A DNA stretch of 64,000 nt from Apoderus coryli (Eukaryota; Arthropoda; Insecta; Coleoptera; Attelabidae): NCBI GenBank assembly GCA_911728435.2, contig OU452198.1, forward strand, positions 1,736,001-1,800,000. Reading direction: 5' to 3'. This document shows positions 1,434 to 57,461 of the stretch, one piece after another. Position numbers and translations under genes: made by a program. The first letter of the stretch is position 1. Each line of letters begins with the position of its first letter. The notes under the pieces were generated by a model. That model had not been told where the DNA came from, did no database searches, and saw nothing but the letters and a program-made list of their open reading frames with translations.

Positions 1434-2697
1434 TTGTCCAGTAAGTATAATTTTAGGAAAGCAAATTTTCATTTATTATATCAGCAACTTTTTGAAGCTG
1501 ACTGGACCAGCGTTATTTTTTCCACAGACGTGAATAGAGCTTGTGAAGCTTTTTATAGCAAGGTGTTTAATGTTTTCGAAACTTGCATACCAAAAAAAGT
1601 TAACAGAAAGATTAGATTTCCAGTTTATTACAATAAGGATATTATTAGTATTATTTATCGTAAGGAGAAAGCTTATATGGATTTTAAAATGTTTAGAGGT
1701 GCTTATTATCGCGATAGGTATGACAGGCTGAGGCGAATCATTAAAAATCAAATAGATGCTACTTACACGGAATATATAAGTACAGGAATGTGAGGCCTTA
1801 GTTATGTCTGACTCCAAAAATTTTTGGTCTTTTATTCATAGTAGACTCAGTATATCCAGGATGCCGGGAGTGATGAGGGACTCTGATGGGATAACCTATT
1901 CTGGACCGCAGGATATTGTTGACGCATTTAGTGGATATTTTGAAAGTGTTTATGCACGCTCATCACCTACTGTTCCAGACTTGCACATGCCGCACTCGAA
2001 TAGTATAGAAGTTTCGGTTTTGGATAGCGACGATATAATCGGCGCTTGCAGGAAGTTAAAGAACAAGTTCACGGCTGGCACTGATAATATTCCGAGCTTT
2101 CTGTTAAAGGATTGTGTGTCTACATTTTTGAGCCCTCTGTTGCACATTTATAATTTGATTTTATCCACCAACATATTTCCTTCATTGTAGAAATCTGCTA
2201 GGATTATTCCTGTACTTAAAAAGGGCGATACATCAGTAATTGACAATTATAGGCTTGTTGCATTGATCTGCAGTTTTGCCAACATTTTCGAGATTGCCTT
2301 GCACAATAAACTGAATCCGCAAGTAAAAATTTTATTGTCTCCATATCAGCACGGTTTTATTGGAGGACGTTCTTGTCTAACTAACTTGTCCTCCTTTTCA
2401 CATAGCATATGTGAGGCCCTGGATGATCGATCTCAGGTAGATGTTGTATATACGGATTTCCGTAAGGCATTTGACCGCATTGACCATTATATACTCTTGA
2501 AGCATTTAGATAGGATTGGTTTTTCCAATGGGTTGTTAAGCTGTTTGAATCTTACCTTGTCGATCGCATGCAGTTTGTTGAGTGTGAAGGTTATAAGTCC
2601 AGAAAGTTTGTTTCAACATCAGGTGTGCCACAGGGATCAAACCTTGGCCCACTATTGTTTAACATCTTTATTAATGATCTTGTTGAAATTATAGAAT
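1434..2697 (+). pseudogene. LINE (non-LTR) reverse transcriptase, 3'-truncated
   Basis: This is part of the second ORF of a jockey/CR1-like LINE. Frame one (1434-1790) reads as the linker between endonuclease and reverse transcriptase. After a frame change, 1804-2190 carries the start of the RT domain with the AGTDNIPSFLLK block. A stop at 2188-2190 replaces the Trp expected before KSARIIPVLKKGD, and the same frame then continues. Motif A is present as YTDFRKAFDRIDH, with its catalytic Asp near 2455. Motif B (SGVPQGSNLGPLLF) lies one frame away near 2622-2665. Similarity stops at INDLVEII, exactly where the G/T minisatellite begins. The catalytic F/YADD block is missing, so the gene is dead. 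The missing C-terminal part lies in opposite orientation at 3280-3957. Confidence 0.85.
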
Positions 2698-3275
2698 GGT
2701 TTTTTTGGTTTTGGTTGGTTTTTAAGTACAGGGTAGGGTTTTTGTTGGTTTTTAAGTACAGGGTAGGGTTTTGGTTGGTTTGGGTTGGGTTTTTTTTTGG
2801 TTTGGTTTGGTTTGGGTTATTTTTGGTTTGGTTTGGGTTTTTTTTTGGTTTGGTTTGGGTTTCTTTTGGCTTGGTTTTTTTTGGTTTGGTTTTTTTGGTT
2901 TTGGTTGGTTTTTAAGTACAGGGTAGGGTTTTTGTTGGTTTTTAAGTACAGGGTAGGGTTTTGGTTGGGTTGGGTTGGGTTGTTTTTGGTTTGGTTTGGG
3001 TTTTTTTTGGTTTGGTTTTTTTTTGGTTTGGTTTTTTTGGTTTTGGTTGGTTTTTAAGTACAGGGTAGGGTTTTTGTTGGTTTTTAAGTACAGGGTAGGG
3101 TTTTTGTTGGTTTTTAAGTACAGGGTAGGGTTTTGGTTGGTTTGGGTTGGGTTGGGTTGTTTTTGGTTTGGTTGGGGTTTTTTTTGGTTTGGTTTTTTTG
3201 GTTTTGGTTGGTTTTTAAGTACAGGGTAGGGTTTTGGTTGGTTTGGGTTGGGTTGGGTTTTTTTTGGCTGATTTT
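2698..3275. repeat. G/T-rich minisatellite with 30-bp core unit
   Basis: A strongly strand-asymmetric array with almost only G and T on the plus strand. A core AAGTACAGGGTAGGG recurs eight times, at 2724, 2754, 2914, 2944, 3056, 3086, 3116 and 3218. Spacing is exactly 30 bp inside clusters, and clusters are 140-190 bp apart, giving a higher-order unit. Between clusters are runs of GGTTT and GGGTT, including several consecutive TTGGG units near 2962-2985 and 3243-3260. The minus strand stays open across the array as a Lys/Pro/Asn/Gln-rich peptide, which I attribute to the repeat and not to selection. Confidence 0.9.
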
Positions 3276-3957
3276 TGTCGTATCTTTGTAGGTCGGTGTT
3301 GGTTGTAATGTTAGGGATTATCCATGGTGGTGTAGATGGTAAGGTTGTGGGTAATAATTGTGGAAATTCAATGCTTAATGAGGTTTTGTATTTGTTGACT
3401 CTATGGTAATATGGAGGATCAAGGTGGGGTTTTGTTTCAAAAGTTGTTTCGAATCTATTTGAAAAAACGTTAGAATACGTAGGATTTTCTCTTTTAGTGT
3501 ACATAGCTGCTGCGTATGATAGGCTAAGGTACTGACGTCTTCTGGCTAGGTTGGCTTCTCCGGATTCACAATGTAAGCTCTCCGTCGGACTTGTTCTATA
3601 TGCTCCTAATATAATTCTTAAAGCCTTATTATGTAGTACGTCGAGTTTCTTTAAGCATGAGTTTTTTGCTGATGCGTAGACCATACAAGCATAGTCTATT
3701 TGTGATCTGATAAGGCTTTGGTAGATTCTCAATAGTGATATGCGATCAGCTCCCCATTGCTTGTGACTTAGGGATTTCATTAAGTTGATCGCTGACTGAC
3801 ATGATTTAATAAGTTCCGCTACGTGACATTTGCAGTTTAAATTTTGGTCGAATATCATACCCAGAAACCTTGTTGTGGTTACATATTTTACCCTTTCTTT
3901 TTGAAAAGTTAAACTTGGGACATGATATTTAATAACGCAAAAATATCTGGTGCTCTA
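3276..3957 (-). pseudogene. LINE reverse transcriptase C-terminal region, 5'-truncated
   Basis: The minus strand encodes the region downstream of the RT catalytic site in jockey-type LINEs. Reading 5' to 3' it has FLGMIFDQ, then HVAELIKSCQSAINLMKSL, WGADRISLLRIYQSLIRSQIDY and a LHNKALRIILGAYRTSP block, then the usual SLHCESGEANLARRR stretch. The frame is open upstream of the first Met (3858) to a stop near 3957, so the Met is not a true start. The 3' end runs straight into the minisatellite, which extends the frame artificially. Together with 1434-2697 it supplies complementary halves of one LINE protein, in opposite orientations, lacking only the FADD segment. Confidence 0.85.
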
Positions 3958-3960
3958 GAA

Positions 3961-4500
3961 GTCTAAACTGTAAATTTTACTGTTAATTTAATTTTCACGC
4001 AAATTGGCAATAAACTTTAAGTATTAATTCACAGAGTATGCCTTGTATGTACGAGTAGGTATATGGGAATAGCCAGAGCGTTCATTATGCATTGTATACA
4101 CAAGCACCTTTCATATTATTTTAGATGCTGTTAAATATTAGCCATTGTTGAAAAGTTTCAGCGTTGTTCCTATTATGGACGATGAAATTTAGAAAGTTAC
4201 TTGAGAAAGTTTTGTATATGTATTATTATATTTACCTATTTAATGTGGAAATCATGTTATTCATTCTGGGAGATTTCGGTAGAAATACTGTTTCATATAC
4301 GGGAAAATGTGGGAAAGACGCTACTGGAAACTGTTTTTCTTGAATAACTTTTAAAATACTCCGTACAATATAACAAAGATTTTATATTGTGGACACCATA
4401 GTAAACTTTTTTTAATGTTACTTGAAATTGAGGCTTCTACGAGGTACTGATCAAAACCAGGGCATTTCATATGTTAATAGCATCATATTATTGAGCGTTG
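3961..4500. other. unassigned spacer
   Basis: AT-rich, no supported gene, RNA or repeat. Confidence 0.5.
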
Positions 4501-4505
4501 ACACG

Positions 4506-4566
4506 ATTTCCTCGCGAGATAGGTCGGATTCTTAACCGTCGAATCCGACCTATCTCGCGAGGAAAT
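4506..4566. repeat. perfect 26-bp hairpin
   Basis: Bases 4506-4531 are the exact reverse complement of 4541-4566, with a 9-base loop (TTAACCGTC). The arms contain TCGCGA, unusual for this AT-rich window. The right arm overlaps the 3' end of the RAD50-like reading frame, so the last residues of that frame are encoded by the hairpin. Confidence 0.95.
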
Positions 4567-5137
4567 GGAATTTAAGTTCTTTTTCGTACTGTTCGATGTT
4601 GTGTTGGGATCGAATAATCTCCTCAGCACATCGATATAGAATACTTGCATCTGTAATTAAGTTCCGACAGATTTCGAGTTTCTTTTGGGGATCTTGAAGA
4701 TCGGCTTGAAGTGAGACCAGTTCAAAGGATATATTTTCTAAAGAATCAGTTTTTTCAGCTAGTTCAAATTCTAGTTTTGGGATTTTATCTTCTTTCAGCA
4801 CAGTGATATTAACATTGACTTGTGTGATTTCCTGTAATTTATTGTAAAACTCCTCTTGTTCTTTCAATTCCTTCTCGACTCGAATTATTTTGTTGGGTAA
4901 TTCTTCAATTTTAGTTTTTAATTTTTTCACAATATCACCTGCCACAGATCTTTTCGAAGAAAAATCCGTTTCGCAAATTGGACAACATGGTTCACTGGTT
5001 TCAAATTCGCTGATAAATTTCTCGTACATTACTTTCGCGGACCGGTAGTTACCCTTATATCTTTGCAATTTCTCCTTTCTTTCATAAGTCTTTGTTAAAA
5101 CTGCATCAAAATTGTTTCCTTTGCACAATTCAGACAT
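4550..5137 (-). pseudogene. RAD50: RAD50 zinc-hook / coiled-coil fragment
   Basis: A 195-residue open frame resembles the middle of RAD50, the ATPase of the MRN double-strand-break repair complex. Residues 1-50 and 60-195 are heptad-rich coiled coil with high Lys/Glu. At about residues 51-58 sits CCPICETDF, the CxxC zinc-hook motif that dimerises RAD50 through shared zinc. Full RAD50 is about 1300 residues, so this is only the hook and its flanking coils, without Walker A or B domains. The minus-strand sequence before the first Met is pyrimidine-rich (TTTTCCTTTCAATG), like a 3' splice site that lacks AG. The frame ends inside a perfect hairpin at TAG. It could be an isolated exon of a gene with long introns, but the lack of a clear acceptor and the hairpin end favour a captured or dead fragment. 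Confidence 0.75.
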
Positions 5138-5239
5138 TGAAAGGAAAATTGATGTTGTAAGAAGTACGGATGTAAAAATTAAAACAAAAAAACATACGTT
5201 TCTACCTTATCGAACATGTCCTTGACAATAATTATTGTA

Positions 5240-5345
5240 AATGGACAAGAAGTGATGGTCCTGTAAAGTGGCCTCCGCGTTCTCCAGTCGAAAGTTTCCT
5301 ATATTTTGCATTTGAGGAGTTTTCAAAGACCAACTTTCTTTGAAA
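5240..5345 (+). pseudogene. possible mariner-type transposase C-terminal relic
   Basis: One plus-strand frame reads GPVKWPPRSPVESF, resembling the WPxRSPDLSPLDFF motif around the last catalytic Asp of the transposase at 56388-57461. No other part of a transposase is recognisable nearby. The match is short, so this is tentative. Confidence 0.3.
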
Positions 5346-6881
5346 ACAGGAGTGCATTGTGTCTATACCAGACGTTCGAAAAAATAAAGCCAATAAATCA
5401 CTTTATTTCGAAACAATCTCAACTCAAGCTATACCTACTTACTTACTCTCAAGGGAGTAACAAACTTGTTTCGCGGTTGAACTTTACCAATTTTACACAA
5501 GAAAAGCGAAACGCAAAAAAAAAAAATGGAAAATAAAAACTGGAAAGCAGTAAACTGAGATTAAAGGGAAACATTTTAAGTGCATCACATATAGAGCGAG
5601 CCAAGTAGTGATTTAGTCTTGTGTATAGGGCCATAAACAAAAAACACAAAATAACGAAACTTAATAATGTCAGAGCAGGTATTTACACAAATAATGAAAC
5701 AAACGGCGCGCGTGTGCCGGTGGAATTTTAAAAAATCTAAACGAGGCATACAATAATTGATTGCGTTTGGGTGATAGAGAAAAATGGCTTGCAAGAACAC
5801 GTATAGAGTCAAAATTAGATGTTGGTGAAGTAGTTTACAATGACCGGATTTCTTGGACATACTGAAACTTCCTTATACAGGGTGAGTCACCCTATAGACG
5901 CGACGGTCTACTGTGGCAAAACTATTCAGATTTTCAAAATTCTTTCAACGTCTAATTTTGTAGATCCATTAAGACTACATTCTAGAATAGGTGCCATTTA
6001 TAATGGGTGTTAAATTATCCCGTAGCACATCAAACTTACGTTTTTTTTTTAAATAGAACACCCTAGATATTATTTTTGTACCACGTAACTAAAACTCAAA
6101 AATATAAATTGGGAAGCCAGTAATCGACCGTCTTGCGGTGTATATCAGAGTGTCTGTTCCAGATTTTAGTTATATAGTAGCGAGAAACGTGATTGTGCAA
6201 CTTCGGCAATTTCCTGAAGGTTTACCCAAGCGATTATTGAGTCGCATGATATATCTATGTATCTGTCTCTGTGTTTCTCTTCTTTTCATATTGACTCTTT
6301 TTATGTCAAAGTAATGATAATGTTAACGAGAGACAATAGGAAAGCTGTTATTTTAAACTAACAGACATTGTTAGTGTTTCGCACACGATAATTTTGTATA
6401 AGTTTATGAAATAGACTGTAGGTCGACTATTGTTGCGTCCACATTCAGTTATTTTATTTTCCGCATTTTTTTTTATTATAAATAAGTAATAATTGAATGT
6501 GATTCTATATTTTAAACAAAACCCAAATTCAATGTAAATTCATAATATGTTTCATAGTCAGTTAATAAGTTTGCGCGTGCATGTTGGCCTTTAAGGACGA
6601 GCTAAACTACTATTTAATTCTATTTTATTGTGTAATTATTGTTATTTTTACTCTATTCTACTATTTTTCAACTATATGTTATCTATTTTTAATAATTATA
6701 AATTCTGATATTCTGATAGCGCTGTCTTTGTCGTCGAAAAGCTGCAAAATTGGCAAAAGTTGGGGTAAGCGATCTGCGAATCCGCTGCCAGGATGGATCG
6801 CATCAAAATACAAATGGAAAATTTATTTTTTTCTCACGGGAACTAGGCACTTTTCAACTGTGATTTAATACGGTTTCCCTA
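5346..6881. other. unassigned sequence with one TACAGGGTG end
   Basis: No supported gene. A TATACAGGGTGAGTCACCC motif at about 5874 resembles the ends of the DNA elements elsewhere in this window, but I could not find a matching partner. Small frames at 5306-5860 and 6581-6868 show no family features. Confidence 0.45.
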
Positions 6882-24967: not shown

Positions 24968-25078
24968 AGCACCATAGAATGTGTCCACGGATAGAGTTTG
25001 GAAGAGGACAAACTTTTTATTTGTAGATTTAGAAGAAAAAGTCATTCTTTATAAAAACGTCTGCTTGTGTCAAAACTA
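24968..25078 (+). repeat. dispersed repeat F, copy 1
   Basis: Shares AAAAAGTCATTCTTTATAAA and the flanking TCCACGGATAGAGTTTGGAAGA blocks with 32932-33058 and 33108-33226. Three copies in the window; two of them form a palindrome. Confidence 0.75.
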
Positions 25079-25392
25079 CAATTTACGATTACTGTATACA
25101 GGGTGACATAGAAAAAAGTACATTGCATAGTGCCACACAATAGAGGCCACTAAAATAAGATTAAAAGTTCCCATGAACACGGGTCCGCAAGGCCTTCGGT
25201 TAAAAGTTACGGGGTGTTGAATTTTAATTTTTTAGTTTTTTGAATATCTTTAGCCAGAGACGCAAGAAATGGATAAAATGTGGTATACAGGGGTTTTTTG
25301 TCATGCTAAATTCAAATATGATCTTAGTTTTGTGATTACTGATAGAGGGTTCCATCCCTATTGAATCGGTCGTAACTTTTTATACCTTTAAC

Positions 25393-25406
25393 AATTATTA
25401 CATTAG
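25393..25406. repeat. left target-site duplication of hammerhead insert
   Basis: AATTATTACATTAG here and AATTAATACATTAG at 26181-26194, 13 of 14 bases identical. They bracket 25407-26180 exactly. Confidence 0.85.
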
Positions 25407-25442
25407 AAATGGGCTTGTTTAACAAAACAAGACTTAAAATCC

Positions 25443-25542
25443 GAGAGTTTGTCTGTCAACCACTATACTTTCACCAGACGGCCGTTTCGTCGATCCACGG
25501 CTCATCAGTGGTGATCGGTCAGTAGTTGACAGCCAAACTCTC
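25443..25542 (-). ncRNA. type I hammerhead ribozyme, minus-arm copy
   Basis: The same architecture as the plus copy, read on the minus strand: CTGATGA, stem II, GAAAC, GGCC, GTC, and the same long stem I. The only core-proximal difference is in stem II, GCCG instead of GTCG, which leaves one C-A mismatch in a four-pair stem. Predicted cleavage is after the C opposite 25477. It is probably weaker than the plus copy. Confidence 0.85.
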
Positions 25543-25885
25543 GTAAATAATGTGGTATATACCCCACACGGTACAGAGATGTAAAAGGATGTGTTTGGAG
25601 ACTTCTAGTTTTTTCGTTGGTAGTACGCCGAGTGAACAACAGTTCCTATATCGGCTGCCTGGGAGGTCTCTGACCCCATAAAGCAACTACCAACACATAG
25701 ACGCGCCGATACTCCCTTAAGCGGGATCGCATATATTTGAAATGGGCTTGTTTAACAAAACAAGACTTAAAATTCGAGAGTTTGTCTGTCAACCACTATA
25801 CTTTCACCAGAAAAAAAAACTAGATGTCGCCAAACACATCCTTTTACATCTCTGTACCGTGTGGGGTATATACCACATTATTTAC

Positions 25886-25985
25886 GAGAGTTTGGCTGTC
25901 AACTACTGACCGATCACCACTGATGAGTCGTGGATCGACGAAACGGCCGTCTGGTGAAAGTATAGTGGTTGACAGACAAACTCTC
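25886..25985 (+). ncRNA. type I hammerhead self-cleaving ribozyme
   Basis: The full consensus core is present. CTGATGA is at 25920-25926. Stem II pairs 25927-25930 with 25936-25939 (GTCG/CGAC), loop TGGAT. GAAA is at 25940-25943. A minimal stem III follows within ACGGCCGT (25943-25950), and the GTC cleavage triplet ends at 25951. Stem I has an inner helix 25914-25919 with 25952-25957 (TCACCA/TGGTGA), a symmetric 7+7 internal loop, an outer helix 25897-25906 with 25965-25974 (10 pairs), and a further nine-pair helix 25886-25894 with 25977-25985. The self-complementary ACGGCCGT in place of a real stem III is typical of Penelope and schistosome SM-alpha type ribozymes, which can cleave as dimers. 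Confidence 0.93.
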
Positions 25986-26180
25986 GGACTTTAAGTCTTG
26001 TTTTGCTAAACAAGCCCATTTCAAATATATGCGATCCCGCTTAAGGGAGTATCGGCGCGTCTATGTGTTGGTAGTTGCTTTATGGGGTCAGAGACCTCCC
26101 AGGCAGCCGATATAGGAACTGTTGTTCACTCGGCGTACTACCAACGAAAAAACTAGATGTCGCCAAACACATCCTTTTAC

Positions 26181-26194
26181 AATTAATACATTAG
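26181..26194. repeat. right target-site duplication of hammerhead insert
   Basis: AATTAATACATTAG, partner of 25393-25406 with one mismatch. Confidence 0.85.
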
Positions 26195-26420
26195 TTTGAC
26201 AAGTGTCATTATGACACATTATTTAATTTTTATTTATCATTGTTTTTGCAAAGGTTGGCAAAAGATATTCAAAAAAACCCAAAAAAAAATTAAAATTCAA
26301 CACCCCGTATCTTTTAACCGAAGGCCTTGCGGACCCGTGTTCATGGGAACTTTTTTTCTTATTTTAGTGTCCTCTATTGTGTGGCAGTATGCAATGTACT
26401 TTTTTCTATGTCACCCTGTA

Positions 26421-27960
26421 TATGTATGTATTCGGATTTTTTTTTTATATTTAAATTATTTATCCATATATATATTTATTTGTATACAATAATAATTTTT
26501 GAAAAAAAAAAATGTTTTCTAGTTGGAAAGGCCGATGAAGGTGCAAATCATGGCAACAAAGCGTCGCAGTAAATTTAAAGACGTTTTTTGACAGCATAAT
26601 AAACATTCGCAATTAGAATTGTGTTTTTGAGAACCTAAAACTCCAAGAATTTAAAAGTCTTAAATATAAACAAGGAGGTTCAAGAATAAGGAAAGGAAAA
26701 TTCAAATTTTATAGAATTTATGGGTGACCTTTGGTCCTCACTCTATTCTCCCTAACATAATATGAAATTTATAGAGTATGACGGACAAATAAATCTGTAG
26801 TTCACATCATTTAGTGGAACAAAATAATGTAAATAATAATTTGTTGTAATTTATCATTTTGTGGAAATGTCGATCTGTGTGACTGCAATTGATTGGTTTT
26901 TGAGCCCTTCGGACAAGAACAATTCATTATTATTATTACAGTTTTGCCAAAATTGCGTAAATTAATGTTAATGCTACAAATATGTTGAGCAATTTGACGG
27001 CTACAATGCGAAAAATGCATTTCATGATATACGGCGGAGCAAATGGAATTTTAGGGAACTTAATACAAAACTATTGAGGAAATAGTTTCGTTTCGTGATG
27101 TTATGATCACTTTTCGAAGCTAAAACAGTTTCGAAAACATGAATCAAGATCATCAGAACATAACTAGCATTTAGTTAAACTTGAACTATTAAGTACCTTT
27201 GACAATAAAAGTAAAGGCTTTTTAGTTTTTAGATTAATAATAATAATACACCAACAAAAAACATATACATAAATAAAATTAACATTCTAAGTACATATAA
27301 TATGTTGCTAAAAGGAACGAGAAACAATTAAGAAGAGTTCTAGTCTGGTCGCCATATTATGTAGGAATTCCTCGAAGAGTCTTTAAAGCGCCATAGGATT
27401 TCTGAGCACATTAGATATATGACTTTTAAACCTCAACTCTGTGTCCGTTTTTCCAGGTCAAGATTTTTTGCACATGCAGAAAACAACACCGATTTTGTTC
27501 CCTATCCTTTCCGAAAACTAAACCATGAGATTTTGACGGTTTTATATGGAGATGATGATTCTCCGAAAATTTACTTTATTCTGTTTTCTTGAACCTCGTA
27601 GATTATTTTTTTTCAATTTCCTTGGGGTGTTAGTTCTATATTAAAAATTCAACAATTTGGTTATAAATGTTACGATTTGTTCTTAAAAACTGAAGATTTA
27701 TTGATTGCTCTGAAACCGGTGGAGATATGCAAATGAAATTTAGTGGATTTTAAGAGGTAGTTATTGCGCATTTTTGTGTAATGTTTTTCAATAACAAATA
27801 TCAAAAATGAAATTAGGTATATGCAAAATGATCACGTAAAGTCCAAATTTTCTAATATTTTTTTGTTTAAATGAAAATATCTTAAAAACTAATAGCTTTA
27901 GGTATAAGAAAGGCTATATAAGAGTAAAAGCTTATCAATTTTCCTTTCAGTTTTTGATAT
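26421..27960. other. unassigned; weak hammerhead-like motif near 27105-27150
   Basis: No supported gene. On the minus strand CTGATGATC ... TTCGAAACTG lies near 27120-27155, but no convincing stem II forms. Confidence 0.4.
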
Positions 27961-32280: not shown

Positions 32281-32931
32281 GGGGTGTGTCTCTCAGCCAA
32301 ATATAGCCCAAAAACGTTTTGTTACCGAGATGCAGGGTGTCACAGTTTTACATTTTTGTTGGGTTTTTTATCTGAGATAATTTTATAAGTAATTAATTGA
32401 AAAATACAATATTAGTGTAATATATAACGTATTTCAGCATATATACACCAGGTTGACACAATATTGAAGGCCTTACACATTTTAGCCAATCTATATTTTC
32501 AGTTGTCAAAGATTTGCATTCAATTTAGAAACTTTCTTGCATCTCTTTTCTAAATTGAAAGGCAAATATTTAACTAAAAGCTTGGGGTGACTAAAAGATG
32601 TATTAGACCTTCAAAAAATGTGTCAGCCTGTAGATGCTGAAAAACGGTGTATTACTCTAATATTGTGTTTTTGAGATATAATAATAAATTTGGGTTAATT
32701 AGTTTAAAAATTGTCAGAGACAAATTAAAAAACCAAAACAAAATATAAAACTTTTGACAACCTGAATCTCGGTAAAAAAGTGTTTTTGGACCAAATTTAT
32801 AAGCACTTGTTTTTCTTATTTTAGGCTGAGGGTTTCTTTTGAGCCAGAGGTTTCCTCAGAAGTTTCTTGTCATTGAAATATTGATTTGAGAGTTGTGGTT
32901 CACCAACAAGACAAATAAAAAAGTTTTTGCT

Positions 32932-33226
32932 CTTCCAAACTCTATCCGTGGACACTTTGGATAAGAAGAATAACTTTTTTATTTGTAGATTTAGAAGAAA
33001 AAGTTATTCTTTATAAAAACGTCTCCTTGTGTCGAAACTGCAATTTAAAATGCCAAATTTACGATTACTATACAGGGTTTATCAAAAATAACAATTTTAA
33101 TTTGAAATTGCAGTTTCGAAACAAGCGGACGTTTTTATAAAGAATGACTTTTTCTTCTGAATCAACAAATAAAAAAGTTTGTCCTCTTCCAAACTCTATC
33201 CGTGAACACATTGTATATTATGGTGT
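32932..33226. repeat. palindrome of dispersed repeat F (copies 2 and 3)
   Basis: 32932-33058 and 33108-33226 are inverted copies of the block also found at 24968-25078. The gap holds TATACAGGGTTTATCAAAAATA (33068), resembling the element ends at 13453 and 17152. The palindrome therefore seems to flank or contain a TACAGGG end. Confidence 0.8.
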
Positions 33227-56162: not shown

Positions 56163-56387
56163 CTGAAAACAACTACAATCATTTCTAAATTATTTACTTT
56201 GAAGAAAAACGGGATTTCAAAAACACTATCTTATTTATCAGAACTAAATTCCTCACTAATCGTTTGCGTTTTTTGTTGAAATAAAAACTGCAGATACGTG
56301 TAGGAAAAGAATTTACACCGTTTATTTTAGTCTTTTCATTGATTCAGTTTGGTTGCTTCTCAAGTTATTTTACTTTTACCGTACAAA

Positions 56388-57461
56388 ATGATTTATTCCA
56401 TTCTAGAACGAGTTGAAATTGTTAAACTTTATTTTCAAAATAATAGTAGTGCTAGACTTACGGCTCGCTTATTTAATGAGAGACATCCCGATAAAAATGT
56501 GAATGATGTGTACGTTGGCAAGTTAGTTAAAAAGTTTGTAGATACCGGATCTGTCTGTAATGTAAAACACCAGCCGCAGAAACCGATCAGAAATGAAGCT
56601 GTGGAAGTCGCTGTTTTAGGGCATGTTGAAATGGATCATAGTCAAAGTACCCGTCAACTAGCTGAAGCCTCAGGTGTCTCCCGTTCGTCCATAATACGAA
56701 TTTTAAAAGCGTACAAATTTCATCCGTACAAAATCAAATTAGTACAGGAACTAAATGAGGATGATCCTGATAGAAGGCTGCAATTTTGTGAAGCAATGAG
56801 CCAGCGTTTAATTGAAGATCCGCAATTATTATTTAACATTTGTTTTTCCGACGAATGCACATTTTATTTGAATGGAGCTGTAAATAGGCACAATTGCCGT
56901 TACTGGGATGACAGTAACCCACATTTATTCCGTGAGGTTCATACCCAGTATCCTCAAAAAATAAACGTCTGGTGTGGCATATTAGGAAATCATATTATAG
57001 GACCACTTTTTATTCCTGGAAATTTAACTGGTGAAGTGTACCTAAACATGCTTGAAGACACAATTGATCCTTTAATAACACAAATAATAGAAGATGACCA
57101 AAATCATACTGCTGATCGGCTTTATTTCCAGCAAGATGGAGCACCTCCGCACTATGTGGCTCCTGTAAGACAGTTCTTAGATGACCGGTTCCCTGGACGG
57201 TGGATTGGAAGGAGGGGCCCAATTGAATGGCCTGCCAGGTCACCGGATTTATCGCCTTTAGACTTTTTTCTTTGGGGGCACTTAAAAAATAAATGTTTTG
57301 CCACGAAGCCCGAGTCCATAGAAGATCTTCGCCAACGCATTACAGAAGAGTGCAGAAACATAACACCTGATATGCTACAAAATGTTAGAAATAGATTTGA
57401 ACAAAATCTGTATTATTGTATGGAATCAAATGGGTCACATTTTCAACATTTGTTAATGTAA
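56388..57461 (+). CDS. transposase, DDD type with DUF4817-like N-terminus
   Basis: The enzyme that would cut and paste the surrounding element. I choose Met at 56388 (357 residues) because the 13 residues after the upstream Met at 56349 are hydrophobic and unlike the family. Residues 4-52 (ERVEIVKLYFQNNSSARLTA ... RHPDKN) form the first DNA-binding helical domain. Residues 87-107 (STRQLAEASGVSRSSIIRIL) are a classic second helix-turn-helix. The catalytic triad is Asp155 (FSDECTF), Asp250 (QQDGAPPHY) and Asp292 (SPDLSPLDFFLWG), with 41 residues between the second and third. There is no frameshift or premature stop and the length is normal. It could be active. Confidence 0.93.
   Translation: MIYSILERVEIVKLYFQNNSSARLTARLFNERHPDKNVNDVYVGKLVKKFVDTGSVCNVKHQPQKPIRNEAVEVAVLGHVEMDHSQSTRQLAEASGVSRSSIIRILKAYKFHPYKIKLVQELNEDDPDRRLQFCEAMSQRLIEDPQLLFNICFSDECTFYLNGAVNRHNCRYWDDSNPHLFREVHTQYPQKINVWCGILGNHIIGPLFIPGNLTGEVYLNMLEDTIDPLITQIIEDDQNHTADRLYFQQDGAPPHYVAPVRQFLDDRFPGRWIGRRGPIEWPARSPDLSPLDFFLWGHLKNKCFATKPESIEDLRQRITEECRNITPDMLQNVRNRFEQNLYYCMESNGSHFQHLLM

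Follow-up and report, generated by a model that had tools for sequence, protein, structure and literature searches.

The locus described here raises the question of how an insertion that consists of two oppositely oriented, hammerhead-bearing arms comes into being, from what form of RNA it is copied, and by what kind of enzyme. It lies in a 64,000-nucleotide stretch of the genome of Apoderus coryli (assembly GCA_911728435.2, contig OU452198.1, positions 1,736,001 to 1,800,000), which is referred to below as the window and whose own numbering is used throughout. The insertion (25407-26178) is 772 bp long, is built from a 333-bp unit with a GC content of 45%, and has arms that point outward, the 5' sides of the RNA meeting at its center; its inverted repeats are 97 to 98% complementary. 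An initial annotation had attributed this arrangement to twin priming on an RNA whose 5' end had been made by self-cleavage. The reading that we favor, with a probability of about 0.7, is that the insertion is a metazoan (non-LTR), non-autonomous retrozyme, mobilized when a Penelope-type enzyme copies a circular RNA by target-primed reverse transcription on both target strands.

The initial annotation had described two arms meeting head to head within a target site duplication (TSD), and both observations held, the arms being parts of one 333-bp unit (Table 1). In its minimal form the TSD matches at 13 of 14 positions (AATTATTACATTAG at 25393-25406 and AATTAATACATTAG at 26181-26194), and in an extended form it matches at 15 of 16; its length can be read as 14 or 16 bp because the target and the element have bases in common at the right junction, where we place the end of the insert at 26178. 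Unit positions are numbered in the ribozyme sense, position 1 being the first base 3' of the hammerhead cleavage site, and the two outer ends are called A (near 70) and B (near 228). Both hammerheads score below the curated Rfam value of 34 bits, the plus-strand copy just under it (33.8), and Rfam reported no hammerhead in the window at its gathering threshold. The ribozyme core pattern, with up to three mismatches, was found twice in the window and not at all in 100 shuffles. The minus-strand hammerhead has C at unit position 310, where the family has T, and a stem II pair is broken. Two filler A residues at the inner junction are explained by neither arm. No ORF of at least 130 amino acids was found in the insert, nor was poly(A) at either of its ends. 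The unit, folded as a circle, has a predicted energy of -111.3 kcal/mol, compared with a mean of -81.6 for 100 shuffles.

Table 1. Coordinates of the insertion, its parts, and its MITE-like host in the window
Feature	Positions	Strand	Details
Left terminal inverted repeat, MITE-like host	25095..25256	+	From inverted-repeat comparison
Left TSD	25391..25406		16 bp, 15/16; shortest form 14 bp, starting at 25393
Left arm, sense on minus	25407..25811	-	Unit 332 (inner) through one full unit to 70 (outer, A end)
A start-site motif AAACAAGCCCATTT	25407..25420	-	Motif 3' end is the exact left boundary of the insert
Type I hammerhead	25471..25514	-	RF00163, 26.7 bits, E 4.4e-4
Second, internal A motif copy	25740..25753	-	Inside the partial second unit
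Inner junction	25809..25813		Site equivalent to cleavage at 25809/25810; left-arm match extends 2 nt beyond it, then 2 filler A
Right arm, sense on plus	25814..26178	+	Unit 196 to 333, on to 227 (B end)
Type I hammerhead	25914..25957	+	RF00163, 33.8 bits, E 1.9e-6; cleavage 25951/25952
B start-site motif AAACACATCCTTTT	26165..26178	+	Motif 3' end is the right boundary of the insert
Right TSD	26179..26194		16 bp, 15/16
Right terminal inverted repeat, MITE-like host	26256..26422	-	Matches the left repeat at 92% over 167 nt

The insert sits within a MITE-like element with inverted repeats of 162 to 167 bp, and the initial annotation had named, as an observation that would speak against it, a MITE family that normally carries the palindrome as its own internal sequence. 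We rejected the palindrome as a core of the MITE because the insert recurs at 39 other places and a match to the MITE was found in only 1 of 79 loci, L001, which is the window itself. Other repeats and coding sequences lie in the surroundings. A further dispersed repeat occurs in both orientations with approximately 90% identity at 24974-25085, just left of the MITE, and at 32911-33216. Tandem repeats of the G-rich TTTGG type, with periods between 5 and 142 bp (2707-3304), adjoin a reverse transcriptase fragment, and RVT_1 fragments occur in the window. An uninterrupted ORF of 370 amino acids (56349-57461, plus strand) has HTH domains, one of which is weakly like those of Tc3-type transposases.

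Copies of the unit were sought in the same genome (428 Mb, 129 contigs), and 156 listed matches were clustered into 40 loci. Of 1353 first-look candidates, the 40 with the best scores make up the sample: 39 loci taken with flanks plus the window, giving 40 mapped loci. L017 was left out as the reverse-complement twin of L016, and 39 loci were analyzed. L016 (contig C24, 1.95 Mb) and L017 (contig C24, 0.81 Mb) carry the same 486 bp of retrozyme, with identical unit limits and TSD but inverted relative to each other, which probably reflects duplication of part of contig 24. L021 (1501-3349) is a five-segment insertion with 3.5% internal divergence, more complex than a two-arm scheme; repeated template switching or nested insertions may account for it. 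Beyond this genome, the insert had no match among phages or plasmids, and the exact hammerhead pattern had none in viral contigs or genome contigs, in a search that possibly left out near relatives.

The form of the template can be approached through the divergence among copies. The comparison included 203 unit copies or part-copies from the 39 loci, with all segments counted, including the second fragment of L015 and the five of L021. Copies within one arm diverged by 0.72% (293/40416) and copies in the two arms of a locus by 0.81% (257/31858), whereas copies from different loci diverged by 2.24% (57518/2569001). Young insertions were exact: L028 had no difference in 4120 comparisons across two arms and eight copies, and L024 had none in 1159. 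When left arms were paired anew with the right arms of other loci, none of 2000 permutations gave a divergence as low as the true pairing (mean 0.0118 versus 0.0214). At sites polymorphic in the family, 2549 of 2605 comparisons agreed within loci versus 73666 of 91074 between loci. Because divergence within arms and within loci lies below that between loci, both arms and all tandem copies of an insertion were read from one monomer, at least in the informative loci. The window is not one of these: its arms differ at 12 of 448 positions (rank 14 of 26), no less than the arms of other loci, and it therefore cannot serve in this comparison. Variants fixed within a locus are rare in the hammerhead (1/1663 versus 32/7521 in the rest of the unit, p 0.02), as expected if the live RNA needs a hammerhead.

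The longest arm, 2254 nt, spans 6.8 units and crosses the hammerhead site uncut seven times. Most simply, the template would be a 333-nt circle that was copied for more than one round. The alternative is a linear multimeric transcript from a homogeneous genomic array, which would also account for arms longer than one unit and for read-through of the cleavage site. A multimer from a homogeneous array would likewise yield identical copies, and multimeric retrozyme RNAs are present in axolotl, as reported in the available part of PMC7229834. However, many of the sampled arrays are heterogeneous, with divergence within a locus of up to 3.5%, yet the young insertions had 0/4120 and 0/1159 differences, and mixing of alleles within a locus is rare, 2549 of 2605 comparisons being in agreement. 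We therefore regard a linear multimer as unlikely, though worth keeping in view.

The outer ends of the arms, where reverse transcription would have started, are fixed. Sixty of 65 outer ends in the 39 loci fall at A (68-79) or B (225-236), intervals that were chosen after inspection of the data; the second, separate fragment of L015 was excluded from end counts, and with it the figure would be 60/66. After TSD correction, where a TSD had been called, A narrows to 68-74 (n=26) and B to 226-230 plus one end at 234 (n=22). At the window the insert boundaries coincide exactly with the 3' ends of AAACAAGCCCATTT on the left and AAACACATCCTTTT on the right. The sequence common to the sites A (approximately 70) and B (approximately 228) is AAACANNNCCNTTT. 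In the register of the ends the two motifs match at 10 of 14 positions, and only 2 of 2462 random position pairs were equally good with the same slack; the likeness is significant only when anchored at the ends, since with a free offset 15% of random pairs were as good. At the template level the two motifs showed no significant conservation (p 0.31). A structural likeness of the two sites was considered and discarded, as a small hairpin precedes A and none precedes B. Just 3' of B, unit positions 228-250 hold a cluster of variants fixed within loci (23/682 versus 32/7521 elsewhere).

Head-to-head arms are present in 26 of the 39 loci, and in 21 of these 26 one arm ends at A and the other at B; A/A and B/B pairs do not occur. 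If the ends were drawn independently, the chance of 21 mixed pairs would be approximately 5e-7 with equal frequencies and 2e-8 with the 9:4 ratio of A to B seen in single-arm loci. In the five other head-to-head loci (L014, L026, L027, L031, and L040), one end is at its proper site and the other is off-site, and no TSD longer than 7 bp was found; our guess is that the off-site ends result from later damage. The remaining 13 of the 39 loci have a single arm, whose outer end is at A or B in all 13, and a clear TSD is missing in several of them. TSDs were called in 27 loci. They are 9 to 19 bp long, mostly 12 to 14, and 87% A+T; 25 of the 27 are at least 11 bp, two are just 9 bp, and that of L043, being made up of element sequence, should be set aside. 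The target shows approximate symmetry, A-rich at one cut and T-rich at the other. We also examined whether the target primer anneals specifically to RNA sequence 3' of A and rejected the idea: the A flank is matched equally well by primers from the A side and from the B side, and the annealing signal is therefore read as AT-richness.

Fixed, paired start sites bear on whether the insertions were made in trans by an L1-like LINE through ordinary twin priming. The initial annotation had invoked twin priming, and the part of that proposal that stands is priming from both target strands, as indicated by the head-to-head arms and the TSD. The L1-type version of it does not stand, both initiation sites being fixed. 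TSD length and the AT-rich target would suit a LINE, RVT_1 fragments are present in the window, and 5' inversions are reported for 18 to 22% of human L1 insertions in the available text of PMC12016303. Against this, 26 of the 39 loci have inverted arms, second priming occurs at a fixed site rather than at scattered ones, and the insert of the window has no poly(A) at either end. Mobilization by a LINE consequently appears improbable.

The inner ends behave differently from the outer ones. The initial annotation had placed the inner end of the minus arm within one base of the position equivalent to hammerhead cleavage. It is indeed near 25809/25810, but the homology continues to 25811, and the real distance is given as 0 to 2 nt because a run of A residues blurs the position. 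From this near-coincidence it had been concluded that self-cleavage made the 5' end of the template RNA, in other words that the template was a linear RNA with a hammerhead-cut 5' end and that, with twin priming, the inversion junction is the cleavage site. Starts of other copies at random positions had been named as the observation that would count against the idea, and this is what was found. The 65 inner ends in the 39 loci spread evenly and are compatible with a uniform distribution over the unit (Rayleigh p 0.81; KS p 0.26). Only one, that of the window itself, is within 3 nt of the cleavage site, where 1.4 would be expected, and two are within 10 nt, where 4.1 would be expected. Furthermore, left-arm homology in the window continues 2 nt beyond the cleavage site, although the A run makes this ambiguous, and arms run through hammerhead sites that were left uncut, in L010 as many as seven times. 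The proposal retains in its favor the left inner end of the window, 0 to 2 nt from the cleavage site, but as a rule it is refuted in the sample of 39 loci, and we consider it very improbable. The inner junction of the window most likely fell at the cleavage site by chance; for this locus alone, run-off at a cleaved 5' end is conceivable.

Inner junctions instead bear marks of end joining at arbitrary points. Microhomology at the junctions averages 2.7, versus 0.66 at random, and at least 2 nt are shared at 12 of 18 contiguous junctions, compared with 15.5% at random. The remaining 9 of 27 junctions, in eight loci and including the window with its 2 nt, contain 1 to 9 nt of filler. An origin of the second arm at the DNA level, through foldback or through gene conversion of an inserted single arm, is scarcely credible. 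It would likewise yield similar arms, but in 21 loci one arm stops at A and the other at B, both fixed sites, and diverged loci such as that of the window indicate that conversion is not maintaining identity.

Head-to-head arms with two start sites are also found in the Penelope-like elements of the same genome. GIY-YIG matches are abundant (all 150 scored candidates, of 1260 in a first look); the check for a reverse transcriptase (RT) domain covered one GIY-YIG family, and the Penelope sample comprises five ends. L079 (G000:C1:11604000-11613000, 1975-6846) is a Penelope-like head-to-head palindrome of 4.8 kb, near-perfect at 99.6%, with an uninterrupted ORF of 728 amino acids in each arm that has RVT_1 and GIY-YIG domains. 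It is a young, probably recent insertion. Its TSD, read by eye, is ATTACTGTCTTA, and its left arm is 34 nt longer than its right arm. L078 is also head to head, with an arm difference of 30 nt, the TSD GTGGTGCTTTATT, and a right end with 4 nt in common with the target; the TSDs of these two loci are 12 to 13 bp. The five Penelope ends (L069, L078, and L079) fall on two sites approximately 34 nt apart, at 692-696 and 726, and both head-to-head loci (2/2) pair the two start sites, one per arm. Among 120 listed relatives of the Penelope protein, of 486, the best-scoring named ones are from longhorn beetles (Molorchus and Aromia), followed by others from a springtail, Tribolium, flies, and a mealybug; no relative of the ORF was found in PDB at E 0.001. 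Rfam reported no hammerhead in L079 at E 0.1, and a hammerhead-like string was noticed there by eye. Candidate hammerhead strings (CTGATGA or CTGAAGA, then GAAA, then GTC or GTA) lie near the GIY-YIG loci L049, L056, L064, L070, and L076 and fit Penelope-borne ribozymes, as would be expected.

Published accounts agree with this anatomy. Penelope head-to-head arms with an optional 31-bp "tail" on one arm and TSDs of 8 to 10 bp are described in the accessible part of PMC3846280. According to the available text of PMC11167929, a PLE cuts and extends both strands with a preference for ATT, and two internal RT start sites explain the "tail"; the same text reports that the anole PAc in vitro had no strand difference in start site and that its hammerhead mutants still insert. 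The published "tail" is the two-site arm difference of L078 and L079. Because the Penelope loci have head-to-head arms and two paired start sites, the retrozyme integrates with the same geometry. Several points weigh against a Penelope enzyme. A and B are 157 nt apart, versus approximately 34 nt for the Penelope sites, and in 5 of the 26 retrozyme loci with head-to-head arms one end is off-site. There is also no sequence link to the GIY-YIG loci: comparison of the unit with 30 of them gave nothing below E 0.1, a search in which an autonomous partner may have been missed because 30 of 150 GIY-YIG matches were compared. The A/B motif was not enriched in GIY-YIG loci either (5 sense versus 10 antisense matches). 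The small Penelope sample, the negative Rfam result for L079, and the in vitro behavior of PAc weigh on the same side.

Penelope-type reverse transcription of a circle would proceed as follows. Tandem transcripts would self-cleave through their type I hammerheads and be closed into 333-nt circles, by analogy with the retrozymes of PMC7229834 as described in its available part. A dimeric Penelope-type RT/endonuclease would bind the RNA and make a staggered cut in both strands of an AT-rich target, 12 to 14 bp apart to judge from the TSDs. The two 3' ends would then prime at fixed places, A (approximately 70) for one strand and B (approximately 228) for the other, as the end positions show, and each enzyme would copy 5'-ward, often for more than one round of the circle, leaving the tandem, near-identical copies that are observed. 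The two cDNAs would finally be joined at arbitrary points, often through short microhomology, giving head-to-head arms between TSDs; in single-arm loci one cDNA would have been joined straight to the target. The two fixed start sites, the A/B pairing, the TSDs, the scattered inner ends, the junction microhomology, and the use of one monomer per insertion are read directly from the sequences, and from them we infer that the template was circular and that a Penelope enzyme was the driver. The predicted fold of the circle places A (70) and B (227), 157 nt apart in sequence, in one multiloop bridged by an arm (92-226), so that they may lie close in space. A more specific and tentative model, to which we would give somewhat less than even odds, is that two RT protomers hold one circle at two multiloop sites; the two strands at the target cut would prime one protomer each, and both would copy in the same direction. 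This would amount to two-headed rolling-circle target-primed reverse transcription, in which the hammerhead serves only for making the circle.

This insert family bears on the enzyme that moves animal retrozymes and on the role of circular RNA as template. The clues that it offers are two precise start sites, the A/B pairing across the two strands, and a single monomer as the source of each insertion, all of them consistent with integration of the Penelope type. Penelope has been proposed as the retrozyme partner on the basis of co-occurrence and shared hammerheads (PMC7229834 and PMC7761336, available parts), and the available text of the 2020 review (PMC7761336) describes retrozyme repeats as having no conserved motif that would help to deduce the partner. 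Animal retrozymes and Penelope tails are known already, each separately. Among the titles and abstracts listed in searches of the open-access literature, none concerned head-to-head retrozymes, paired start sites, or twin priming with hammerheads.

Among known systems, plant LTR retrozymes resemble the insert in their hammerhead-processed circular RNA intermediate, but they have LTRs, a type III hammerhead, a 4-bp TSD, and proposed Gypsy machinery (PMC7229834, PMC7761336, and PMC4918200, all in their available parts). Schistosome W-elements are hammerhead-bearing repeats with signs of mobility, one with a possible TSD; they are satellite-like, and fixed paired start sites are not reported for them in the accessible text of PMC8490949. 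Twin priming by L1 likewise produces cDNA from both target strands, an inverted arm, and a TSD of approximately 13 bp, but inversions are a minority there, and one cDNA starts from the poly(A) tail and the other from varying internal places (PMC12016303, available text). The metazoan non-LTR retrozymes of Cervera and de la Pena (2020, PMC7229834) have the same type I hammerhead, tandem units of 150 to 450 bp, a GC content below 50%, a TSD longer than 4 bp, no coding capacity, and a predicted self-paired circle. The insert agrees in its type I hammerhead (below the gathering threshold), its 333-bp unit with 45% GC, the absence of an ORF of at least 130 amino acids, a TSD longer than 4 bp, and its dispersal. 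Those retrozymes are reported as tandem repeats, and the available part of that paper does not mention head-to-head arms or two fixed, paired start sites. These are features of Penelope-like elements, which encode an RT and a GIY-YIG domain and whose start sites are approximately 30 to 34 nt apart, whereas the retrozyme is noncoding, with sites 157 nt apart; by the RT plus GIY-YIG ORF, the insert is not itself a member of that group. In the available texts of PMC3846280 and PMC11167929, Penelope-like elements have the same head-to-head arms, a second start site, TSDs of 8 to 13 bp, and an AT-rich target, and their RNAs are likewise reported to contain hammerheads.
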